Origin: Pilasporangium apinafurcum
Taxonomy: Eukaryota > Oomycota > Peronosporomycetes > Pythiales > Pythiaceae
NCBI GenBank assembly: GCA_001600495.1
Contig: BCKE01000021.1
Span: 57,850-121,849 of the forward strand
Reading direction: 5' to 3'
Length of the DNA stretch: 64,000 nt
Shown here: positions 4,259-55,892 of the stretch, piece after piece
Layout: each line of letters starts with the position of its first letter
Position numbering within the stretch: position 1 is the first letter of the stretch
Program-made: the position numbers and the translations under genes
Notes under the pieces: generated by a model
The model's input: the letters and a program-made list of their open reading frames with translations, nothing else
Told to the model about the DNA's origin: nothing
Databases searched by the model: none

Positions 4259-5677
4259 TTATTCGGGCACACACTGCGAATACCATGGATTAAAGTATTT
4301 GCACGTAGCCCCGGGGATGCATTGCGTCGCACCCTGGTGATATCCTCCCCCACATTGGTACCACAATGGCACATAATATAGGTCATGCACGGGAACGCAC
4401 TGGTAGAACCAAGTGTTGATCACGTCGCATTGATAGCCGTATACACATTCGAGTTTGACTTGCGAGTCTTCAGTAGGGTATTCAGAGACATACTGAAGAT
4501 AATCGAGCCCTGTGCCACCGCACTGTAGCCATGCCGGTACTTGTGCAAACTGCGTTGAAGATGCTAATGACGTATTATGATCGTCGTCAGCATTCGCATC
4601 ACTGGATTTAGAGCTTGCGCTTGACTGTATGCGCAAGTACGATCTGCCTGCCGTTGAGCTTGAGGTACTTTCCGATGTGCTTGTGGCAGAGGAAGTGGAT
4701 GATGTTTGGCCATTCTTCGCAGTTGAGTCGGAGATGTTCCTGCTTGAAGAGTAGCTGGTGGACCTAGAACTGGAACTAGAGCGAATGCTACTACGGATGT
4801 CAGAGCCTGATTTGCCTGAAACTGATGCTCGGCTGTCACCAACCGATCCTGCATCATCACCGCCAAAGCTTGAATCGGAACTGCTAATACTGAAGTTGGT
4901 GTCATTGAAGGTTGGCACAACCACATCGATGATAATAGGATTAGACAAGCTGCCGGAAGTGGAACTGTTCGTCTGAATCGAATATTGCGGTAAACATTGC
5001 GAATAGGCTTCACCTAGGTCCACACAGACCCATTGCTCAATGCACGTCTCATTACCAGCGTATTTTATCCCACCACATTGCCCAAAGGGACCGATGGCAT
5101 TACCCCACACGTCGTGATCCACGTCCTCAGGGATGGTAAACATGTTCCAGGAATCATCGCTCCCAAATCCACCTTTGGAATTGGCACTATTAGTATAGCT
5201 AGCGGAAGAACTCGAGTCACGATCATTAGACGAACTTGTTGATCCGTTGCTTATCGGTACAGCATGCACATTGCCAGGAATATAGATATCAGCGGATGAC
5301 ACATCGTCAGGAATCACTATGATGGTCAGATTGGTGATTGGAGTGGATGGAGCTGGTGTAAACGTGCTGCTGCCGTCAGTATCATTGATTGGCAAGTCGA
5401 TATCAATGGCACCAGAATGTACAGTGTCAGACATGGAGGCATCATCCTCATCATCCTCAGTTTGTGAGCTATTAACGTTCGTGACAGTGGCGGCTGTCGT
5501 CGCTGGTGTTGAAGTAGGTGTAGTGACTTTGTTGTCGGTCTTATCTGTCTTGACTGGAAAGCCGAGGATGCGATACGCTCGACGGAATGGATCTTCACTG
5601 GCAGCACCAACGCTCTGGATTGAGGAGGACGCTGCCACTATTAACGAACAGAGAAGGAAACCACTGCGTTTCACCAT
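4259..5677 (-). CDS. Secreted protein with three CBM1 (cellulose-binding) modules
   Basis: A 472-residue protein. A signal peptide covers about residues 1-25 (hydrophobic core FLLCSLIVAASSSI). A Ser/Thr/Asp-rich, probably O-glycosylated region follows. CBM1-like modules lie at about 194-229 (GQCGG ... AYSQC), 381-429 (LQCGG ... WFYQC, with an insertion) and 437-472 (YQCGG ... WYSQC). CBM1 is a small disulphide-bonded fold that binds cellulose through aromatic residues; in oomycetes such proteins (compare CBEL) anchor to their own cellulosic wall or to plant wall. No catalytic domain and no PAN domain are seen, so this is a binding or structural protein. A Ser-rich linker of about 150 residues separates modules 1 and 2. 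The start follows an initiator-like motif by about 55-75 bases. Confidence 0.8.
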   Translation of the reverse strand: MVKRSGFLLCSLIVAASSSIQSVGAASEDPFRRAYRILGFPVKTDKTDNKVTTPTSTPATTAATVTNVNSSQTEDDEDDASMSDTVHSGAIDIDLPINDTDGSSTFTPAPSTPITNLTIIVIPDDVSSADIYIPGNVHAVPISNGSTSSSNDRDSSSSASYTNSANSKGGFGSDDSWNMFTIPEDVDHDVWGNAIGPFGQCGGIKYAGNETCIEQWVCVDLGEAYSQCLPQYSIQTNSSTSGSLSNPIIIDVVVPTFNDTNFSISSSDSSFGGDDAGSVGDSRASVSGKSGSDIRSSIRSSSSSRSTSYSSSRNISDSTAKNGQTSSTSSATSTSESTSSSTAGRSYLRIQSSASSKSSDANADDDHNTSLASSTQFAQVPAWLQCGGTGLDYLQYVSEYPTEDSQVKLECVYGYQCDVINTWFYQCVPVHDLYYVPLWYQCGGGYHQGATQCIPGATCKYFNPWYSQCVPE

Positions 5678-25203: not shown

Positions 25204-25400
25204 CACGCAGTCGGGCAATAATTTATGGTCTGGATGGTGTTTGAAGCTATGGAGGTAGATAGCAGAGATGAAAGACAAAATTCTTTGCCTTGTTCTTTTT
25301 TCTTCATTTTATCATAATGGGTTGATTTAGACGCACGTATGGATACAATTTTCTTGGCTTTCTGGGCTAAAATAGCATACAATTGGGTGGATTTTTCTAG

Positions 25401-26040
25401 GGAAAATAAAAAAAATGCACCAAATAATTGAAAAATAAAAAATATATACCAGGCATGTATACTATACGACCAAATGTGCACAATATCCGGTTTCAAACAG
25501 CAAATGATTTCAGCACCACGTAGCTCAATGCAACTAATACAAGGCATAGTTAAACACAATGAAAGCGTATGTTCATTGTGTCCATCAGCATTGCAGTACT
25601 TTTTTCTGTATTTTTAGCGAGGAAAACTCAGTCTTGGATGAAAAACCTCTAAGCAATAGGCACAACNTAATAGCAATGAAGCATTGTGCAATCGAGTGAC
25701 CGTGCTACGCCAGGTCCTACGATTATAATCCACTTGATTGCACATTCCACATCCTCTGGTTTGATGCTTTTCCATGATCTCAATAGCTTGTTACAATGGT
25801 TTTTGTATGCCAACGATCTTTGTGGAGATTGATTCAGCGACCATTGAGTACATAAAGCGACCTGATTTCACTGGATCATCGTGAAAGCTGATAAATACTG
25901 CAACGAACATCCATAAAAGTATGACGCTGTTTGAAACCGGATATTGTGCATATTTGATCGTATAATATACATGCCTGGTATATACTTTTTATTTTTCAAT
26001 TATTTGGTGCATTTTTTTTATTTTTTGATTATTTGGTATA
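25401..26040. mobile_element. Fold-back/MITE-like element with inverted arms of about 100 bases
   Basis: The left arm 25401-25501 and the right arm 25926 to about 26025 are reverse complements over roughly 97 bases with about four mismatches. Matching landmarks are ATGCACCAAATAATTG, ACCAGGCATGTAT and ATATCCGGTTTCAAACAG. The interior is about 420 bases, shows no transposase and includes one undetermined base (25667). The A/T-rich outer edge repeats itself on the right side to about 26055, so the exact termini and any target duplication are not fixed. It is probably a non-autonomous DNA transposon sitting between the ankyrin-kinase and PLAC8 genes. Confidence 0.75.
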
Positions 26041-26502
26041 TTTTTTTTATTTTCCCATTTTTCTATCTTCCCGCCGTCGCTTGGGGGGTTCAACCCTTCG
26101 CTACAGGTGGACAAGACAACGCGTGTGAGAAAGGGAGCAACACTGGAATTTGCTCCATCGTAACTCAATTGAACGAAAAAGCATGAATGACCATAGCTCC
26201 TCACAATATTTTGCTTTCGTCGTTGTTGGGTACAGTAGATACAGTCCTCCTCAAGTTGGCTGAGTATCTAGGTCCATCTCTTCGCTGACGATTGGTTGTC
26301 TTACTGAGAAATCATGTTATCCACTGATAACCCATCTCCCTTCATGAATGCATCTGTTATATCCCCCAACATCAGGCACGAAAGAAGAAATGAATGGATC
26401 CTTCTACGCTTCTCACTTGGTTATTTGTCTTCGCCTACTCAAGTGTAGCATTCTTCATTCTTCCTTCATACACTCCTTTACAAGAAGTAATCAATCTACA
26501 AC

Positions 26503-31331: not shown

Positions 31332-33794
31332 TCAGATTGGGGGGTTGCATTGATGGTTGCAGGGTTTATAGTAGCCTTGAGGGACTGGCTCGTTGGTTGA
31401 AAGGCGTACAGACTTCCGATCTAACATTGGCAGCGTATTGCGTTCATGCTTCGTTTGTATGTAGACGCCACCATTGTCATCTTTGGTGTACTACTTCTTG
31501 AAGGTCATGTTCTCTACTGCTAGCTGGCTAAGCTCGTCCAAGGTGTGCCTAAATTGCTCGTAGTTGAGCTTGAGCGCTGCATTACAGACACCTTTGGCCG
31601 TGATAGTCGCAGCGCTATTGTCGGCAGAGAGCATAAATCGCAATTTGGGGACCAAGCAGATCATTTCTTGCAGATCGGCTTCCAGCTTGAACTTGCCTGG
31701 GATGTCATCACGTTTAGCAGCAAAGAAGCGGTCTCTTAGGTCCTGAAGGAATTTTTGGAGAAAGCCATCGTATGGTGGCGTGTGGACCTTGAAGTAGACA
31801 CCATCAGTGTCAATGTATAAGAGATCTAGCTCTTTTGGGGAGTATGTCTTCCATAGGCAGTTATAGATGAAGTCATACATTAAGAGCTTGGAAGTCTAGA
31901 GTATTTCCATTCCCAGGTATCTGGGTGTTTTCACTTTGGTGGTAGTATGGCAGCTTACCAGCAAAGAGTCTTTCGAAAGCTGTTTTACGTCCACAAGCCG
32001 CTTACCTTGGTCCTTCTTCAGGTATTCATTTGCGTTGTTGACGATGAACTCCTTGGTGTACTTGGTCTCATCCTGCACTGTCTTGTCGTAGAGAGTGTTC
32101 AAGATCAGCTTGTAATAAGCCTTTTGTGACTCACTTGCGGTTACGAGTATTTTATTGTTTGCTTTCATGGCTTCGTAGATGGACATTTCTGCTTGCTGAC
32201 GCTTAGAAGCGTAAGTGTTGACATATTGATCATAAACCATCTCGAACTTCATAGGGATGACTTTCTTGACCTTGGCGATAGAGACCATGTCGTTGTTGAG
32301 CAGATAGAGCAACATACAGCTTGGAATGACGTAGTCATGCTTTGAATCCAAGGTGAGAAGAAGCATCTGTGAAGACCTGGAATTCTTGTTAGCAGCTCTT
32401 TTGACTATATTGCTAAAGGCGCCCAGGTTGTCTGGCGGAACTTCTCTGGCCGTAAGAACAGATAGGTGTTTGAGGCGTTCATTTTGCTCCTCAATGTAAT
32501 AGAGATCGCATTCAATAAGACACCTAAGGAGGCCGTCTTCGTAGTTGTTTAGTTCTTCGATGGTGGTCCTGGCATCACCGTAGAGCAGAGACTATATTAG
32601 ATCTTTGGTCCTTGAATTCTTGCTTGTCGTGATGAGTCTAGTCTGGAAGGTACGGCATTCTGTAGGATCGTCTATGATCTCAAACTTGCACTTACTGTCG
32701 TTATGGCTATCAAGGACCAGCAGGGATCTACTCATTGCGAAAGGATGAAGACTATTCGCGTCCACGCCGAAGATTTTCTTATGGAGTGTGACTTCTGCAT
32801 GGTGTTTGAAAACTGAGCAGATACCATCATAGATGGAGTGGTTAAAGAGTTCATAAACCCTTTGGTTTGGTATCGTGTGCAGGGTGGTCTTGAAATAAGA
32901 CCTCTTAAAGATGTTATCGGCCAGTTGAGAAATAATGACATAGGACAACGTCTCCATACCAGTATCCTTGCAGACAGTAGCTCTATAGACTTTGACCGGC
33001 TGGCGGAGGAGATCAACGTCTTGGTAGCAGTAGAGCTCGGTATATGCCTTCATACTGAGCTTCTTGAGGTTGTCCCATACCTTGCGGTTTTTGGCTTCGT
33101 GGTCACTCCAAATGCCTGTTGGGAAGACTATCTCGAGGTATTGGCTTGGATGCTTGATATAGTCATAGTTGTAGAGTAATTTCTTTCCTGTGACGCCATT
33201 CCTTCTAGCGAAATCCTCAAGACTGTCTCCACCGAAACGAAATGCGTCGAAAAAGACAAAAAGGATACTTTTCTTTATAGAAGGTGCGTAGACAGACCAA
33301 CATGGCTCTATGATACCAGATGACTGAACAAGCACTCTATCTACCTTTTTCTCTATTGGGTTCAATAAGAAGGCCATATCATATTTTCCACTGTTATACT
33401 TTACAACTGGGACTCTAATGGATGAGAGCTCAGCTTTGAGCTTGCTGTAGGTACATGTCTCTAAACAGTCACTGGAAGGATCTGTCTTCTTACACTGGCA
33501 AAGATGCTGGTATTCGGTAAAGAAGGTTGTTCGGGACTTGGTTATGTTAGCAGCTAAGATGGCTGCAATGAACTTGAGCCAGCCCGGGAATCTCTTGCCG
33601 ACACCCTTCTCAGTAGGTTGGAGCGGGTCAGACGGTGAAGTGTTTGTATAGCGGAATTCAAGCTTGTAGGTGTCTTCAAGAGCTACTAAGGTATCCGTCT
33701 TGCCATCGACAATCGCGCCCATAGGAGCACTTGAGTAGCTGCAATTGGACAACTTCTCATTGATATTCTTTGGAGACAAGGCCTGCATCATCAA
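31332..33794 (-). pseudogene. Family B DNA polymerase (protein-primed type), frame interrupted by three TAG codons
   Basis: A single minus-strand frame of about 820 codons encodes most of a B-family polymerase. Visible motifs in order: exonuclease II (KYNSGKYDMAFLL), exonuclease III (YCYQDVDLL), polymerase motif A (GVDANSLHPFAM), motif B (KLILNTLYDK), the following TSKLLMYDF block and motif C (LYIDTDGVYF). The C-terminal block after motif C resembles the usual end of these enzymes. The only interruptions are TAG at 32592-32594, 31896-31898 and 31491-31493; all segments are in the same frame and the frame ends at TGA 31332-31334. The ExoI motif is not seen and the 5' end abuts a VWA gene fragment, so it is truncated. 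Related enzymes replicate linear plasmids, Polinton/Maverick elements and some viruses. It may be a decayed gene or one using UAG recoding. Confidence 0.8.
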
Positions 33795-36314: not shown

Positions 36315-37154
36315 TTAATGGTCCTGATGTCTCGAGATTCGTATAAAGTACGTATCTACTTTGATTGGATAGCCTTCATTAGCCCATTTTTGACCGTCAT
36401 AATCGTAATTCTTCCCGTTGTGACTTGAACAGATTGGAATAATATGGTGCCAATTTGTACATTTGTCTCCTCGAAGTTCAACATGTCCACCGACTGTTGC
36501 CGGCTTTTCACAATCAGCAGCAGCACACGTCAGTAGCTTTCTCAGTGAGTCACGATTCCTCTTTTTCAATGTCTTAGGGTCATTCATATAGCAGATCGTT
36601 AAGGCTTTAAACCATGAGAATCGTTTATCTAAGGTAGAGCCAACAACGTTGGCTGCCCGAGAGTGCTGATAAACTTGTTCATTCTTGTGGTTCTGCAGAA
36701 ACCCATATGTTTGCACCACATCCTGCTTGGTTATCTTTTTCCAGAGCATCTCCGCCTCAGGTTTTGTTTCTGGGTCCGTGCAATAGAGCACTAACTTGTC
36801 AGCATTTAAGTCAATTTCCTGCTGCCAAACTTGTCTTTTTGTCTTGGTCTCAATGCTGGCTTGACCATCAAAGCTTAAGGTTTCCATCCTCTGCTCCAAC
36901 TCCTCCACAGCATCTTTATCTTCATGTTTACGACCTTGCGTATTTTTTTCGCTCTGCTTAGTTGAAGAGGAAGTGATCAACCTGTCTGGGCGCTGACCAG
37001 CGGAGACCAATCCGTAAGCCAAACACGCGATATCCTGCTTTCTCAGGTCTTTCTCTTCAGAGGTCAGCTTACGCTCCAATAGATTCTCTATGCTCTTGAT
37101 CAGTTCGGGTTTGTTCAATCTAAGCAACTTTTTTATTGCGGGATCGTTCTCCAT
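36315..37154 (-). CDS. HNH-like zinc-binding domain protein
   Basis: A 279-residue intact frame from ATG 37154. The N-terminal 110 residues are charged and helical (AIKKLLRLNKPELIKSIENL). The C-terminal 80 residues carry CAAADCEKPATVGGHVELRG, NWHHIIPICSSHN and the final NYDYDG, a Cys-x4-Cys / GGHV / HHIIP.C..HN layout. It resembles the small HNH-like domain (GAHV...PLC..HN) found in phage and giant-virus proteins. The catalytic status is uncertain. It sits in the same orientation as the polymerase and HNH remnants and beside a dispersed repeat, so it may belong to the same foreign segment, but its frame is intact. Confidence 0.6.
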   Translation of the reverse strand: MENDPAIKKLLRLNKPELIKSIENLLERKLTSEEKDLRKQDIACLAYGLVSAGQRPDRLITSSSTKQSEKNTQGRKHEDKDAVEELEQRMETLSFDGQASIETKTKRQVWQQEIDLNADKLVLYCTDPETKPEAEMLWKKITKQDVVQTYGFLQNHKNEQVYQHSRAANVVGSTLDKRFSWFKALTICYMNDPKTLKKRNRDSLRKLLTCAAADCEKPATVGGHVELRGDKCTNWHHIIPICSSHNGKNYDYDGQKWANEGYPIKVDTYFIRISRHQDH

Positions 37155-37634: not shown

Positions 37635-39432
37635 AGATATGTAATGTTGTCTGATCTTGAACGCAAGGTCAGATACATGCCGACACTACGCTTGTTCTTT
37701 GCGTGTGAGGTCAAGCATGCGTCACACTTTAGCCCATCTAAAAAAATGTTTAAAAAAAGGGGCTTAAAAAAGGATAGTGCTGTAATTCTTTAGAGGTTCC
37801 GTAATTTACAACACGGTGTTGGTAAGAAATACTAAGGTAGATGTTTAAAACAATTTGTATCGTCTTTTGCAATTTTCCCTTCTTTATGTTTGAATATGGC
37901 GCATTTTTTATATTTTCGCTTAACAAGCAATCCGCGAGCCAACGGTGCCAGTTTTCAGTTGTTTTCCTAAACTCAAAAAATCCGCAACTGCCTTTTATCA
38001 CATAATATTTTGGCATAGGATAGTTTTTTATTTGTAATGATGAACAAAGCAAACAGCGTTCAAATCGAACTAGTGGTTGTCGAGTAATTAGCAGTCAAAG
38101 ATGAGTATTCGCTTCCATTTTGGCATTGTTTTAGCTTGATGGTCATCGTTTTTATTTCTTTTGATTCATAATTCGTTTCATATATGTCATTTACCCTAAC
38201 CATATTGAATAAAATGAGCTCTAATATTATCAAGAGTGTTTGTCGTCCAAGTAATTTGGCGGCAATCTTCGAGTTATTGGTGCAATACTGTTGGTGTCTT
38301 AAGCCACTCTTCAGCACTTGAGTTCCATACTATGTGCTACAGAGTATATCATTGGACAAAAATGGTATTGTGGTATTTTTTATGTTCTGAACGACCTTGA
38401 GAATCGCAAAATCGATGACCATCTGACAGAAAATGCAAATTTTGTCGTACCAGTTCTCCTCTCTGGATGCTACGACTTGGATAATAATCACGGGAAACAA
38501 GTTTTCTTGGACGGATCTGTTTCGAACTGCCACACATTTTCGTAGAGCACGAATAGCGGATTTTTTGGATTTTGGCCAACCTAAGAATTAGGCTGTTTTT
38601 GGCTCCCTTGACTTGCGGATTGCTTGTTAAAAAAAGTTATTCGAAAAAAACTTTTTTCGTGTCCGTATATCTTCGACGCGCACTTTAGAAAGTATTGTGC
38701 AGAAGTGAGCTTCATGAAAGCATGTTTGAGACATATTGCCCTCAAACTCGATCTGGATTACACACAACACTGCCACTTCAAACGCACGCTCTGTATCATA
38801 CTATAAGCTATGGCAGATCCACATCATTAACTGTCACACATCGCTGCCTGGCCCTCTTACCCGTAACTCGGTCCGTTCCAGTTTTCATTTAATCTATAAC
38901 TGCGGGCAGTTACGGGATACACATATCGTTATACCTCACTGCCAATTCTTCGCTGAAATTTCTATTTTTAGATGTACTTAAGCTGTCCTCCTACCTACTT
39001 TCTAAAGATAGTTTGGCCAGATGTTGAGGATGGGGTCGTCAGGAACCTAAGTACTCTATATGCCCGTATTCATAAGGTTTTCTCTTCCTGAAGGAGTCCC
39101 AAGAGAGCCACAATTCATTGTAGCTCTTCTGTGAAGGTCTGCTTTACCAGAGTCATTTTTTAGAGAGATTTTGGGGGAGCTTTTTTGCTGAATATTCCAC
39201 GTTTCAGTTCCTTCACCCATCGCCCAAATCTATAGTGGCTTCGCCGTCTGCTTGGGTGGACTGTCACACAAGTATAAGCACAAAGTATCGCCGTAAGGGT
39301 GTTTTCAAACCGAGAGTTTGGGAGTGGAACGGCGCTGTGACAAAAGCTCTGGGTGGTGGAAAGGTGCAGACAAAGAGTGAAATTCTATCCCTTGTTCATT
39401 GCACAGAACTGTGACCTTGAAAAATCATTTCA
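37635..39432. other. Long AT-rich region, no gene recognised
   Basis: About 1.8 kb. The minus strand between 37750 and 38580 has several frames of 60-100 codons that could be remnants of one gene, but I recognise no motif. TTGTTCATTGCACAGAACT at 39393-39410 is an initiator-like site about 25 bases before the BTB-SPRY start. Confidence 0.4.
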
Positions 39433-42187: not shown

Positions 42188-42217
42188 TTTTACACCGTTG
42201 AAGATTTCAAACGCCCA
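42188..42217 (+). repeat. Left terminal inverted repeat
   Basis: Thirty bases, TTTTACACCGTTGAAGATTT followed by CAAACGCCCA. They pair with the reverse complement of 42888-42917 with one mismatch. Confidence 0.85.
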
Positions 42218-42527
42218 CGGGACCAAGCCCCTGGTTGTTGATCTTGACCCTCGAACTGATATCTAGCATAAGGCATTACTTCTCGTACACTCTCATCCCC
42301 GTGCGAAAGATCCTTCCTCCACCAAGAGGCGCTGATTATCAGTGGTTCGAGGAATAACCAAACCCTACTACGTGCGGCAGCGCACTGAACACCAACGCAA
42401 CGCCAAGCGGTTGGCCAGGCACTTGTGATACCCAAGACCCCGGCGGTGCGTAAATCCGTCGAAAATAAAAATCTAACACAGGAATATAATCGGATGGAGT
42501 TGGGGACAGACCCCCCTCGACCTACCG

Positions 42528-42832
42528 TACTGCAAAACGGTCAAGACCAGCTGTCAGTGCTCTTACTGCCAAGCCAAGAGTGCCAAGTACGAGAAGTTTC
42601 GTGTCAGGTTGGACCCTAATACGAAAAAGACTGATGAAGATAGGCAACTCCAACTTGTACATGGCCTATTGCTGTGCCAACAGTGTCATAGCTGTGGAAT
42701 AGAAATGTCAACTCTTCAGTCAACATAGCTCGCCTCACAAGGCAGGCTCTGGAGGGAAGAGACCGACCAGAGTATCTGAGTCGCCAGATACGACTGCCAT
42801 CGGCAGAAAGTGCTGTTATGTCGACAGCATAG
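42528..42832 (+). pseudogene. Fanzor (eukaryotic TnpB-like nuclease) C-terminal fragment
   Basis: A Cys-rich stretch in one frame (TSCQCSYCQAKS ... VHGLLLCQQC) is the zinc ribbon found in TnpB/Fanzor C-termini. A frameshift near 42680 then moves into LWNRNVNSSVNIARLTRQAL and EGRDRPEYLSR, which corresponds to the RuvC-III region (usual form WNRDvNAa.NI). The catalytic Asp position reads Asn (WNRN). TAG at 42830 ends the frame. The upstream RuvC-I and II regions are not recognisable, so it is a dead fragment. It resembles the intact Fanzor at 52370 in layout but is clearly a different lineage. Confidence 0.75.
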
Positions 42833-42887
42833 AAGCATAATTCACACTGGGCTGAGATGCCCAAACATTGTCTTTTTAGGACTCTCC

Positions 42888-42917
42888 TGGGCGTTTGAAA
42901 TCTTTAACGGTGTAAAA
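42888..42917 (-). repeat. Right terminal inverted repeat
   Basis: The reverse complement matches 42188-42217 at 29 of 30 bases. It marks the right end of the 730-base element. Confidence 0.85.
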
Positions 42918-52239: not shown

Positions 52240-52347
52240 CTTTATTCCCCACGTGTTCTGTACCACGCGCAGTACAGAACACCTGGGGAATAAAGTCTAC
52301 ATTCATCCGTTTCCGGAATCATAGCAGTGAGGTCGTTTATCACCTCA
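52240..52347 (-). ncRNA. Structured 3' flank of the Fanzor gene: candidate guide-RNA (omega/fRNA) scaffold
   Basis: Reading in the gene's direction, 23 bases after the TGA there is a 6-base-pair hairpin (TGAGGT/ACCTCA, 52347-52328). A TCCG-GAAA-CGGA hairpin with a GNRA tetraloop follows (52317-52306), then a long hairpin of 24 base pairs with one mismatch and an 8-base loop (52295-52240; arms GTGTTCTGTAC / GTACAGAACAC plus flanks). TnpB and Fanzor enzymes use a guide RNA transcribed from the 3' end of their gene. The position and the clustering of hairpins fit such an RNA, but a terminator or element end is equally possible for the long hairpin alone. Confidence 0.4.
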
Positions 52348-52369
52348 GTTTTTGATTTCGAGTACCAAT

Positions 52370-53422
52370 TCATCCTTTACCCCTTGTGAAGGGCTTAAGT
52401 CTCCTTTTTTTCTTCACTTCGTCGATGAATAGTCTCAAAATGTTTATTGCGGCGTTGATGTCACGGTCCCACAATGTGTGATGGCATTCACTATTTTTGC
52501 AGCGTCGCACATCATAAAGACCATCACCAACAATTTTTCCGTCAAGGACGAACCCCTTCATCTTCTTGTGACAAGCACAACACAGCATTCTCGTCCTGAA
52601 CTCATCCACATCAGCAACACGACAGCTGGAACCAATTTTCTTCCGTAGGGTCGTTGTGGGAACAGCAATGTTGCCTTTAGCTGAGCTTGTGAAACTTGCA
52701 TCTCCATATGCGATAATGGTTCGTTTATTACCATCTGTAAGATTCTTGACTACCTTCTCGTACGTCTGTTGTCGACGAATGTAGGTCGACCATCGTAGCC
52801 TCTTCATCTTCTTTGATAAATAGAAGCCAAGAAGACGATCCAAATACACGAGACAAAATCTCACCCGTCTCAAATAGGAGACAAGGTTCACACCTTTTGC
52901 CGAAGGAACGTTTTCATTGAAGATTTTGATGTCAGGCTCAGCATCAATCCACTCTTTGGTCAACTTTGTTCGTCTGTGGTAGCCGCACTCTCTGTAGAAA
53001 CGACCCTTCGACCAGTGGATGACTTCATGTTTCACGTTCTCTCCTTTCGGTTTTTGCAGTGTAGCCATGCTTTCCTCTTTGTAGACAACAGTAGTGAAGA
53101 TCTTCTTTCTCCCTGGGTCCAAACCGATAATCCGATCTTCATGAGAAAATCCCTCTTTTTGCTCTCTCGCGGGAAGCTTTAGACGGGAGATTGTCACACT
53201 AACTGACATACCGTCGGTCGAGATGAAGTGCTCAAACTCCTTTCGCTGGACTTTGGTCACAAGACCTATATTGAAGTACGTGCGCCATAACTCAGCTTTG
53301 TCGGCGTAAAGCTCAACAGGATCACTCAAAGCCTTAGCAAGTTTGTAAAAGGGTAACCCTTTTATTGGCTTACACTGTTGTGCAGTGAGGAAGCGCAATT
53401 GATTGGCGACGAACGTCGTCAA
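52370..53422 (-). CDS. Fanzor, eukaryotic TnpB-like RNA-guided nuclease (5' end unresolved)
   Basis: About 335-350 residues with the RuvC-like nuclease core of TnpB/Fanzor. RuvC-I is IIGLDPGRKKIFT; the central IIAYGDASFTSSAKGN fits the Fanzor GDxS block; DEFRTRMLCCACHKK and RRCKNSECHHTLWDRDINAA form the zinc ribbon and RuvC-III, with the aspartate in WDRD intact. The frame opens with a TTG preceded by TGA, so there is no usable ATG at the 5' end. An intron 53375-53456 (GTAAGT donor, pyrimidine tract, CAACAG acceptor) may join it to an upstream exon that I could not identify. The 3' flank is strongly structured. A second copy of the 5' region lies at 63830. Other Fanzors are reported to be RNA-guided DNA nucleases. 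Confidence 0.82.
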   Translation of the reverse strand: MTTFVANQLRFLTAQQCKPIKGLPFYKLAKALSDPVELYADKAELWRTYFNIGLVTKVQRKEFEHFISTDGMSVSVTISRLKLPAREQKEGFSHEDRIIGLDPGRKKIFTTVVYKEESMATLQKPKGENVKHEVIHWSKGRFYRECGYHRRTKLTKEWIDAEPDIKIFNENVPSAKGVNLVSYLRRVRFCLVYLDRLLGFYLSKKMKRLRWSTYIRRQQTYEKVVKNLTDGNKRTIIAYGDASFTSSAKGNIAVPTTTLRKKIGSSCRVADVDEFRTRMLCCACHKKMKGFVLDGKIVGDGLYDVRRCKNSECHHTLWDRDINAAINILRLFIDEVKKKRRLKPFTRGKG

Positions 53423-53514: not shown

Positions 53515-55892
53515 AAATGAATGACTGATGTTTGAGTGTCCAATTCGAACATAATCGTAAACAATGAACTACCGCACCAAGCAGAAGTTCATGTTTCCCA
53601 CACATAGTAGGAAACCGTACTTTGGCAAACCCGTTCGGGTTTGGATTGTTTTCAGACCTACTGGGTCTGACATGTAATGGAGATCCATTACATGAGGAGT
53701 ACAAAAAAAGAGTGTGTTTATTAGTGCCTTTATTATAAGGTGACTAGTAGATAGTTCGATCCTTACTTCATTCCTGAGGGTCTCGAACATTATTATCCTT
53801 TGGGTGCAATGGATGGCATTCTTATTGCCCTATGTAATAATGTGACAAGTGAACAAAAACGTTCAAGTTATATTGTTTTTCAGCGGAAAGTATTGGACGA
53901 TCTACAGTGAAGAGGGTGGATCTCGTTTGCGAAGGATATTAATCCACTCGGTATGTATGCTGTTGAGAAGGTGATGATGACTATCTCCACAACAGTACTG
54001 TTTCAGACAGTATGATACGAGAAAGCATTGAGAATGAGAAGCTTTTAGATCAACTCTATGACGTGGGTGACGGAACGCATCCGCTCATTTGTAGACCACA
54101 ATGAGCCTCTTCAGACGCATATTGATGGTTCATCAGTATCTGTAGTTGGGTAAGAGCTTACGATGAAGCTCGTGGTTCTTCTTGTCAAAGTGGGAGACAC
54201 CATAATGTCCATATCATCATCATTAGACAGCAAACAACGGTGCTCAGCAACCTTGCGTTTGCAGTTCCACGTTTACAACACGTCTCACCAAATATTGAAC
54301 AATGTCCTCGCGATCATTGTTGAAAGCTCAAACAATCACGGATCAATGTTTCGCTATGGTATCGTGTTTCAACAAATACTGCACAATGCTCATATGGCAA
54401 CAAAAGATGGCACTGCTCAGGAGCGTGAACCTATTCTAATTGCGCGTGTTTGTCCTTACGCCATACTCCACCCAATATCCAATAACATCTAGATGTTCAT
54501 TACTGACAGCACTGACCAACAGTGTCCATCTGTCCTGGCTTTTTGCCTCGACTGTTGTGTCGTTTCAATATACCAGTGGTCAATCATTTACCAAAATCCA
54601 CATCAGCATGAAAGCAGCAACTGCGACAGTACTGCTTCATTTGATTTAGAATAGTTCGTCTTCGGCGGTATACAAACAATTATGTGTAGATACAAATGGT
54701 TCTTTAGTGCAAGCGAGTTCATTAGGAAAAGTGCTGCAGATGAGCCTGCCCCAATATTCAAGTCCGACAACTCCAAGCCAGTCTTTCTGTCGTGAGCAGC
54801 AGGAAACGAACTTCCTAACGCGCAAAAATAACCTCATCAATCAATTTTGTCTCAGATTACGCTGTGCTATCACAGACAATAAGGGCGTATCAAACGTCAT
54901 AATAGTTAGTGCTGTTCCATGTTCCCACCAGCAGCGGACAAACAGGTAAATAAGCTTTAAATCCCTACTGAACGTTATATAATGATCTGAAATGGTCCGA
55001 AACGCAGAACGTGCCTTTCCTGACATGTTTGCTCGCTTTCTCTTTTGTATAATAGCATATCTTGAAAGAGCTCAATTCAGTGATGACGTTTGTACAAATC
55101 CCCTGCAAGCAAACTAATGTTACAAGCGGCATATTAAAGCTCAAAGCAAAAACACATGAACAAGAATACTAGAGCTTCAGACTGGGTGAATTTGTGCATT
55201 CGGAAATAACGCACAAAACGAGCCAATTGTTTCTGATAATTCTCACCAAAAAACATCAATTTCAAGCTAACTATTTTATGGGCGGATGCAGCTTCCTCGC
55301 GTTTATATTTCTATGCAACGAGCTTTGTTGCCGCTCTTCGTGATGTTATCGAGAGTGTAGGGGACTTTTAGGTATTTGTTTGAGATCACCAGCACATTGA
55401 TTGTCCAAGAACAATTTAGGACTTCAGCAACCTATTTTTCATTTATATTTTAAATGTAAATACCACCTATCCACCGTAAAATACGACACTTTTTCATGCC
55501 ATAAAGGAGCAAATTTTGGCTAATCAACGGTAATAAGGTATCACTCACAAATCTGGAGAATGGAGGGACGACGCAATTCAAATGGACTTGAACGTAGGAC
55601 GAATGCCTTGTTGTTTTACGTGTAGCTGTCAGGTGGATGAGCTCAAAAAAGGCACTGCTGTGATTGTTGGACATGTGACGTGATCTTCTTCTTTTAGGCA
55701 CATGTGCACACTATCGTCGTAAGGATGTAATTAAAATCAGCGCACCCTCTGAAGCGTCTTGGTGGTTTCGCTTTTGTGTGGCTAGTCATACGCGGGTATT
55801 GTTTACCTTTGCAATAGCAACACCAACATTAACATCAACGAAGATAGTTTTGCTCTCTCTATCTCTGTTGATTTTCCCACAGTGAAAGAGGG
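53515..55892. other. Intergenic region, no gene recognised
   Basis: About 2.4 kb between the Fanzor and OSCA-like genes. Scattered frames of 60-110 codons show no family signature. It may contain upstream Fanzor exons or the other end of the element, but I could not place them. The last 100 bases presumably hold the OSCA promoter. Confidence 0.4.

Follow-up and report, generated by a model that had tools for sequence, protein, structure and literature searches.

Features of the locus

The window, i.e., the whole 64,000-nucleotide stretch of DNA analyzed here, carries on its minus strand an open reading frame (hereafter, the ORF) with likeness to Fanzor1 nucleases. Two short hairpins and a long one lie past its stop codon, an ankyrin-repeat remnant lies upstream, and a second, decayed Fanzor1 copy (copy 2) is found elsewhere in the window. 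In the feature list, L009 denotes a viral contig (IMG/VR) with a Fanzor1 frame, found by scanning viral contigs for the pattern DE[YF]RTS..C..C.

52370..53422, minus strand: Fanzor1-like ORF, 350 codons from stop to stop, comprising RuvC, the zinc ribbon and the rear portion of WED (PF07282, E 3e-6; SpuFz1, E 1.3e-5; L009, E 1.9e-9)
53114..53119, minus strand: RuvC-I Asp (residue 102) and the following Pro, in the DPG motif (residues 102-104); aligns with L009 D411
52601..52603, minus strand: RuvC-II Glu (residue 274), placed as in Fanzors, six residues ahead of the zinc ribbon; aligns with L009 E579
52484..52582, minus strand: C4 zinc ribbon, Cys 281, 284, 308 and 313, placed by motif positions and the PF07282 match (residues 267-328)
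52460..52462, minus strand: RuvC-III Asp (residue 321) of WDRD (318-321); aligns with L009 D629
52297..52347, minus strand: two short hairpins past the stop, possibly a relict omega RNA
52240..52295, no strand assigned: palindromic hairpin whose 24-nt arms carry one mismatch and are separated by 8 nt
54247..54522, minus strand: ankyrin-repeat remnant or pseudogene with three in-frame stops (Ank_2, E 8.8e-8), about 0.8 kb upstream of the ORF
42191..42914, plus strand: copy 2, a decayed Fanzor1 remnant in an element bounded by terminal inverted repeats (TIRs); its coding pieces, at 42543-42829, are split over two frames

Coding signal and family assignment of the ORF

When the ORF (53422-52370) was dinucleotide-shuffled 2000 times, the longest stop-free run in its frame was 198 codons versus the 350 observed, indicating that the frame either is coding or was so until fairly recently. 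For codon scores, 15 long ORFs from the window served as the training set with no hold-out, and the threshold was set at the 95th percentile of the wrong frames. Six of the nine blocks of 40 codons in the ORF scored above this threshold, and residues 241-350 were at or below it. At the 5' end, a TGA immediately precedes the frame, the TTG at 53422 is just the first TTG past a stop, and no ATG occurs until codon 72, at 53209.

The match to Pfam PF07282 scored 27.7 bits, against a cut-off of 26.3. Among the solved structures, the SpuFz1 Fanzor (PDB 8gkh) was the top match, over residues 137-286, and it was followed by two weak ones, the transposase 9j09 (E 0.13) and GtFz1 (E 0.48). The NCBIfam TnpB model gave 28 bits versus a cut-off of 100. 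As judged by the top rank of SpuFz1 and this low TnpB score, the ORF lies nearer to Fanzor1 than to the rest of the TnpB-like proteins. A match to the transposase family phrog_506 in PHROGs (E 1.7e-5) was in line with the predicted kinship to TnpB.

The Fanzor1 frame of L009 runs for 680 codons from stop to stop and matches PpFz1 (E 4.4e-35), SpuFz1 (E 2.8e-34) and GtFz1 (E 4.9e-23), starting from the REC region. It shares 23.8% identity with ORF residues 62-350, and its D411, E579 and D629 align with the acidic triad of the ORF. Unlike the ORF, it is full length, and its 3' motif is common to copy 2 and not to the ORF locus. Descent of the ORF from Fanzor1 is thus well supported by the Pfam, SpuFz1 and L009 matches, and to this extent the first-pass annotation, which had described a Fanzor nuclease gene, was borne out. 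A complete gene was not recovered, as the TTG follows a stop, the first ATG comes at codon 72, and the half that binds guide and target was not found.

Fanzor1 families have been recorded in Pythium ultimum (six) and Phytophthora sojae (four), plus other stramenopiles (PMC3627910). Scans with ORF patterns gave no relatives in viral contigs or genome contigs, tblastn with the ORF gave none in phages or plasmids, and a viral scan with the L009 and ORF alignment returned L009 alone. The DE[YF]RTS pattern found two viral and six genome loci, of which L009 was the sole Fanzor, the other seven being frames of 15-138 codons; the DEYKTS pattern returned no loci. Two WxRD patterns yielded eight viral loci; by eye, seven of these had phage-type Cas12/TnpB-like proteins (L001 and L002 with the same protein, as were L004, L005 and L008), and L003 had only a 25-codon piece. 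On L009 itself, two minus-strand frames at 1396-1770 and 830-1405, opposite to the Fanzor1 strand, looked GIY-YIG endonuclease-like by eye, and Pfam gave just T5orf172 at E 0.12. A GIY-YIG gene adjoining a viral Fanzor1 is described in PMC3627910.

Catalytic residues and zinc ribbon

The claim that RuvC-I (GLDPG), the zinc ribbon and RuvC-III (WDRD) are kept was confirmed, as the DPG, the four Cys residues and the WDRD are all present at the positions listed. The third catalytic residue, unmentioned in that annotation, is E274, in the arrangement E274-x6-C281. The ORF therefore has the same order as SpuFz1, that is, RuvC Asp, Glu before the zinc ribbon, and RuvC Asp. According to the available text of PMC10711439, the Fanzor-type catalytic Glu stands six residues before the first zinc-ribbon Cys, with DPG in RuvC-I, and both traits were found in the ORF. 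The TnpB search expression of the same source does not describe it: the gap from DPG to Glu is 169 versus 120-160, the gap between the Cys pairs is 23 versus 12-18, and the second pair is C-x4-C. The C-terminal family motif given in PMC3627910, D-X(125,275)-[TS]-[TS]-X-X-C4 zinc finger-X(5,50)-RD, fits the ORF save for the second [TS], which is Arg278.

The structure prediction that had been proposed as a check was uninformative. AlphaFold2 gave no usable model of the ORF, with a mean pLDDT of 30.1 from the single sequence and 28.7 from a two-row alignment with L009, so the acidic triad, which could be placed, was located through sequence alignment only.

The half that binds guide and target

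Ahead of its first catalytic Asp, the ORF holds 101 codons versus 382 residues in SpuFz1, whose triad is D383, E541 and D606 (PMC11423790), and 410 in L009. Profiles for the REC, mid-region and WED blocks were built from three sequences (L009, PpFz1 and SpuFz1) and used to search all six-frame segments of at least 20 codons in the window. In the ORF, the WED profile matched residues 41-76 alone (E 9.5e-4), through profile positions 45-82, i.e., its back half. The REC and mid-region profiles gave no credible match at the locus, in the ORF or in the upstream six-frame segments. On the minus strand upstream, the E values of the REC profile were 1.1 at 54327-54247, in the ankyrin remnant, 10 at 55242-55180 and 20 at 53829-53572, and those of the WED profile were 7.5 at 54435-54346, again in the ankyrin remnant, and 43 at 54587-54492. 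A PDB search with ORF residues 1-141 returned no Fanzor structure. Elsewhere in the window, a weak REC-profile match of 14 residues at 38273-38199 (E 0.013) was not accepted as real.

Any upstream extension of the Fanzor is bounded by the ankyrin remnant. Six other upstream pieces had no Pfam match. Three upstream blocks among those listed had coding scores above the threshold, one being the ankyrin remnant and the other two overlapping at 53581-53730, where the sequence is weakly coding-like. Because N-termini are highly variable in the Fanzor family (PMC3627910) and the profiles come from three sequences, a strongly diverged or spliced REC could escape detection; from the searches above, a very diverged REC exon near the ORF appears unlikely.

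In three solved Fanzor1 complexes, WED places guide bases 1-3, REC binds bases four to eight, and REC and WED together read the TAM (PMC11423790). Since REC and the front of WED are needed in these complexes and were not recognized here, the structures suggest that the ORF protein would not be expected to be guided. The proposal of a candidate RNA-guided system was therefore not supported: REC and front WED, which such a system would require, were recognizable neither in the ORF nor upstream, and the omega RNA is a candidate only.

A complete working Fanzor1 would have its REC and front WED in diverged upstream exons and a functional omega RNA ending near the long hairpin. Such a gene would account for the unbroken frame, the kept catalytic residues and a folded flank at about the right distance; the blocks at 53581-53730 might then be exonic, and some Fanzor1 genes do have exons (PMC3627910). 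However, we consider it improbable, as the upstream six-frame segments had no REC, mid-region or front-WED match, about 0.8 kb separates the ORF from the ankyrin remnant whereas more than 300 residues are missing, no element ends were found, and the AlphaFold2 runs were uninformative. The open frame, the motifs and the six blocks in the coding range could also be those of a short protein kept by the host, in which the RuvC and zinc-ribbon half would be reused, e.g., in DNA binding, without an RNA guide. This we find hardly credible, as no in-frame ATG lies ahead of codon 72.

Element ends and 3' flank

No TIR pair was found around the ORF; the best inverted match was 10 bp, and it was equalled or beaten in 164 of 200 simulations. 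At the SpuFz1 loci, the RNA spans from the stop to the 3' TIR and extends 14-15 nt past it (PMC10432273). With no TIR pair or transposon end found at the ORF, neither a guide start nor a boundary could be placed. The SpuFz1 loci differ from this one in having TIRs and a sequenced RNA of 88-90 nt (PMC10432273); here, no TIR pair was found and the omega RNA is a candidate. As for the oomycete Fanzor1 elements, compared by their description in PMC3627910, some of the families lie in Mariner-type elements with TA sites, and PUl-1 and PUl-4 are of this Mariner type; copy 2 likewise has TIRs beside TA, and the ORF locus is without TIRs.

The three successive hairpins reported within 130 bases past the stop, of which one has a GAAA tetraloop and another 24 pairs, are all present. 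The short ones lie at 52328-52347, with six pairs, and at 52297-52327, which bears the GAAA tetraloop. The long one, at 52240-52295, folds as RNA with 23 Watson-Crick pairs and one U-G pair at the loop; with arms this close to perfect complementarity, it is both a DNA palindrome and an RNA stem. It was the sole hairpin of its kind in the 64 kb when stems of at least 14, up to one mismatch and loops of 3-20 were scanned. No second copy of the palindrome arm was found in the window with up to three mismatches, nor an exact copy in the viral contigs. Rfam gave no match in the window at gathering scores, and ARAGORN gave no tRNA there.

Including the long hairpin, the flank folded with a z of -8.97. 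Without it, an 83-nt flank piece gave a z of -2.84, and one of 200 shuffles folded as well. The 74 nt between the stop and the long hairpin, where the two short hairpins lie, gave -3.01 on the gene strand and -3.09 on the opposite strand, and of 500 windows of 74 nt drawn at random from the same sequence, five had a z of -3.01 or lower. Without the long hairpin, the folding of the flank is thus modest, stronger than in most of the window and without strand preference.

The long hairpin was rejected as a family-wide Fanzor 3' end. The likeness of the ORF flank to the flanks of L009 and copy 2 was no better than simulation (the observed scores were equalled or exceeded in 450 and 311 of 500 simulations), and by the same comparison the 24-nt end motif that copy 2 shares with L009 is absent from the ORF flank. 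We give an even chance to a hairpin unrelated to Fanzor, either a separate palindromic insertion or a source of dsRNA for silencing, which is compatible with the other readings. Its 23 Watson-Crick pairs and single mismatch in 24-nt arms, the lack of another copy in the window and its unlikeness to the 3' flanks of copy 2 and L009 agree with this; however, it begins 75 nt past the stop, inside the region in which Fanzor1 guide RNAs terminate. It appears highly improbable to us that this is a Fanzor1, compact or spliced, of a lineage whose REC goes unrecognized and which still uses an omega RNA with a scaffold ending in this unusually long 24-pair hairpin.

A second Fanzor1 copy and a motif common to viral contigs

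When L009 was compared with the window by tblastn, the ORF locus (E 1.7e-9) and two plus-strand pieces at 42543-42784 (E 2e-5) were returned. The first of these pieces of copy 2 reads KTSCQCSYC..., and the second, in a different frame, WNRNVN...RPEYLSR. They had no Pfam match at E 1, and the first piece had no PDB match. DE[FY] was absent before KTSC in all three frames examined, and the RuvC-III Asp is replaced by Asn (WNRN, not WxRD). GtFz1 resembles copy 2 in naturally having Asn at this position, with cleavage still possible (PMC11423790), whereas copy 2 is frameshifted. Its TIRs are 35 bp long and 91% complementary, and TA dinucleotides stand at 42191-42192 and 42913-42914, with 720 bp in between. 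From the stop to the element end there are 80 nt, resembling the region of roughly 80 nt at the SpuFz1 loci (PMC10432273). That so clearly broken a copy lies 10 kb from the ORF indicates that such elements arrived and decayed in this region. By DNA comparison, the ORF locus and copy 2 were rejected as a single element family, with a score of 22 versus a mean of 22.9 in 100 simulations.

The TIR motif of copy 2 (42893-42916 and 42189-42212) matches 21 of 24 bases of an intergenic motif just past the Fanzor stop in L009 (3825-3848). None of 1000 simulations reached this score, and in whole-contig simulations (n = 200) the maximum was 31 versus 33. Around the motif, a stretch of 34 nt is identical between L009 and another viral contig, L017, where the motif, likewise intergenic, lies at 4557-4580. 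L017 gave no Fanzor match (best E 1.2), and the large frame right after its motif is, we presume, a topoisomerase II. As L017 carries the motif without a Fanzor, in viruses it could be regulatory and not a transposon end. The motif common to the copy 2 TIR and the viral contigs may mark exchange with giant viruses, or it may be a viral regulatory motif.

Interpretation of the locus

The ORF locus is probably a 5'-truncated relic of a Fanzor1 transposon, and we hold this reading with reasonable confidence. It would be the 3' part of a DNA transposon carrying Fanzor1, whose 5' half was lost; as the locus is without TIRs, we infer the transposon origin of this copy from its family. In an intact Fanzor1 element, the 3' end yields an omega RNA that the protein binds, the sequence just outside the element serves as guide, and matching DNA is cut. 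Here, the nuclease half is open, yet REC and front WED were not recognized, and most likely there would be no RNA-guided function now. The short hairpins past the stop may be remains of the omega RNA. As for the 56-bp palindrome, it resembles a feature of the DNA itself, such as ends that fused or folded back or the insertion of a small hairpin, and not an evolved scaffold. Against this interpretation speaks the unbroken frame of 350 codons with the triad kept and six of nine blocks scoring as coding, which would be unusual in an old relic.

Eukaryotic transposons were already known to carry Fanzor1, so a truncated copy changes little. The lesson is that, without the half that binds the guide, intact RuvC motifs and a folded flank do not amount to a candidate system. 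Copy 2, bounded by TIRs and sharing its 24-nt end motif with a viral Fanzor1 contig, is a somewhat better lead on the passage of elements between giant viruses and hosts.

Other features of the window

The gene content of the window includes a protein with fungal-type cellulose-binding domains, a DUF4246 protein and a membrane protein that matches a 7TM channel below threshold; kinase-like and ankyrin-like ORFs were noted by eye. Such a gene complement would fit an oomycete. Two further minus-strand frames had no Pfam match at E 0.01: one of 399 codons at 32592-33791, family-B DNA polymerase-like by eye, and one of 279 codons at 36315-37154, with an HNH-like end by eye. A TIR-like pair at 37920-38630 (31 nt, 87% complementary, 649 nt apart) likely belongs to a non-autonomous element. 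At 25400-26062, an inverted repeat of 99 nt, 96% complementary, with 424 nt between arms that are AT-rich where shown, is probably a foldback or MITE-like element.
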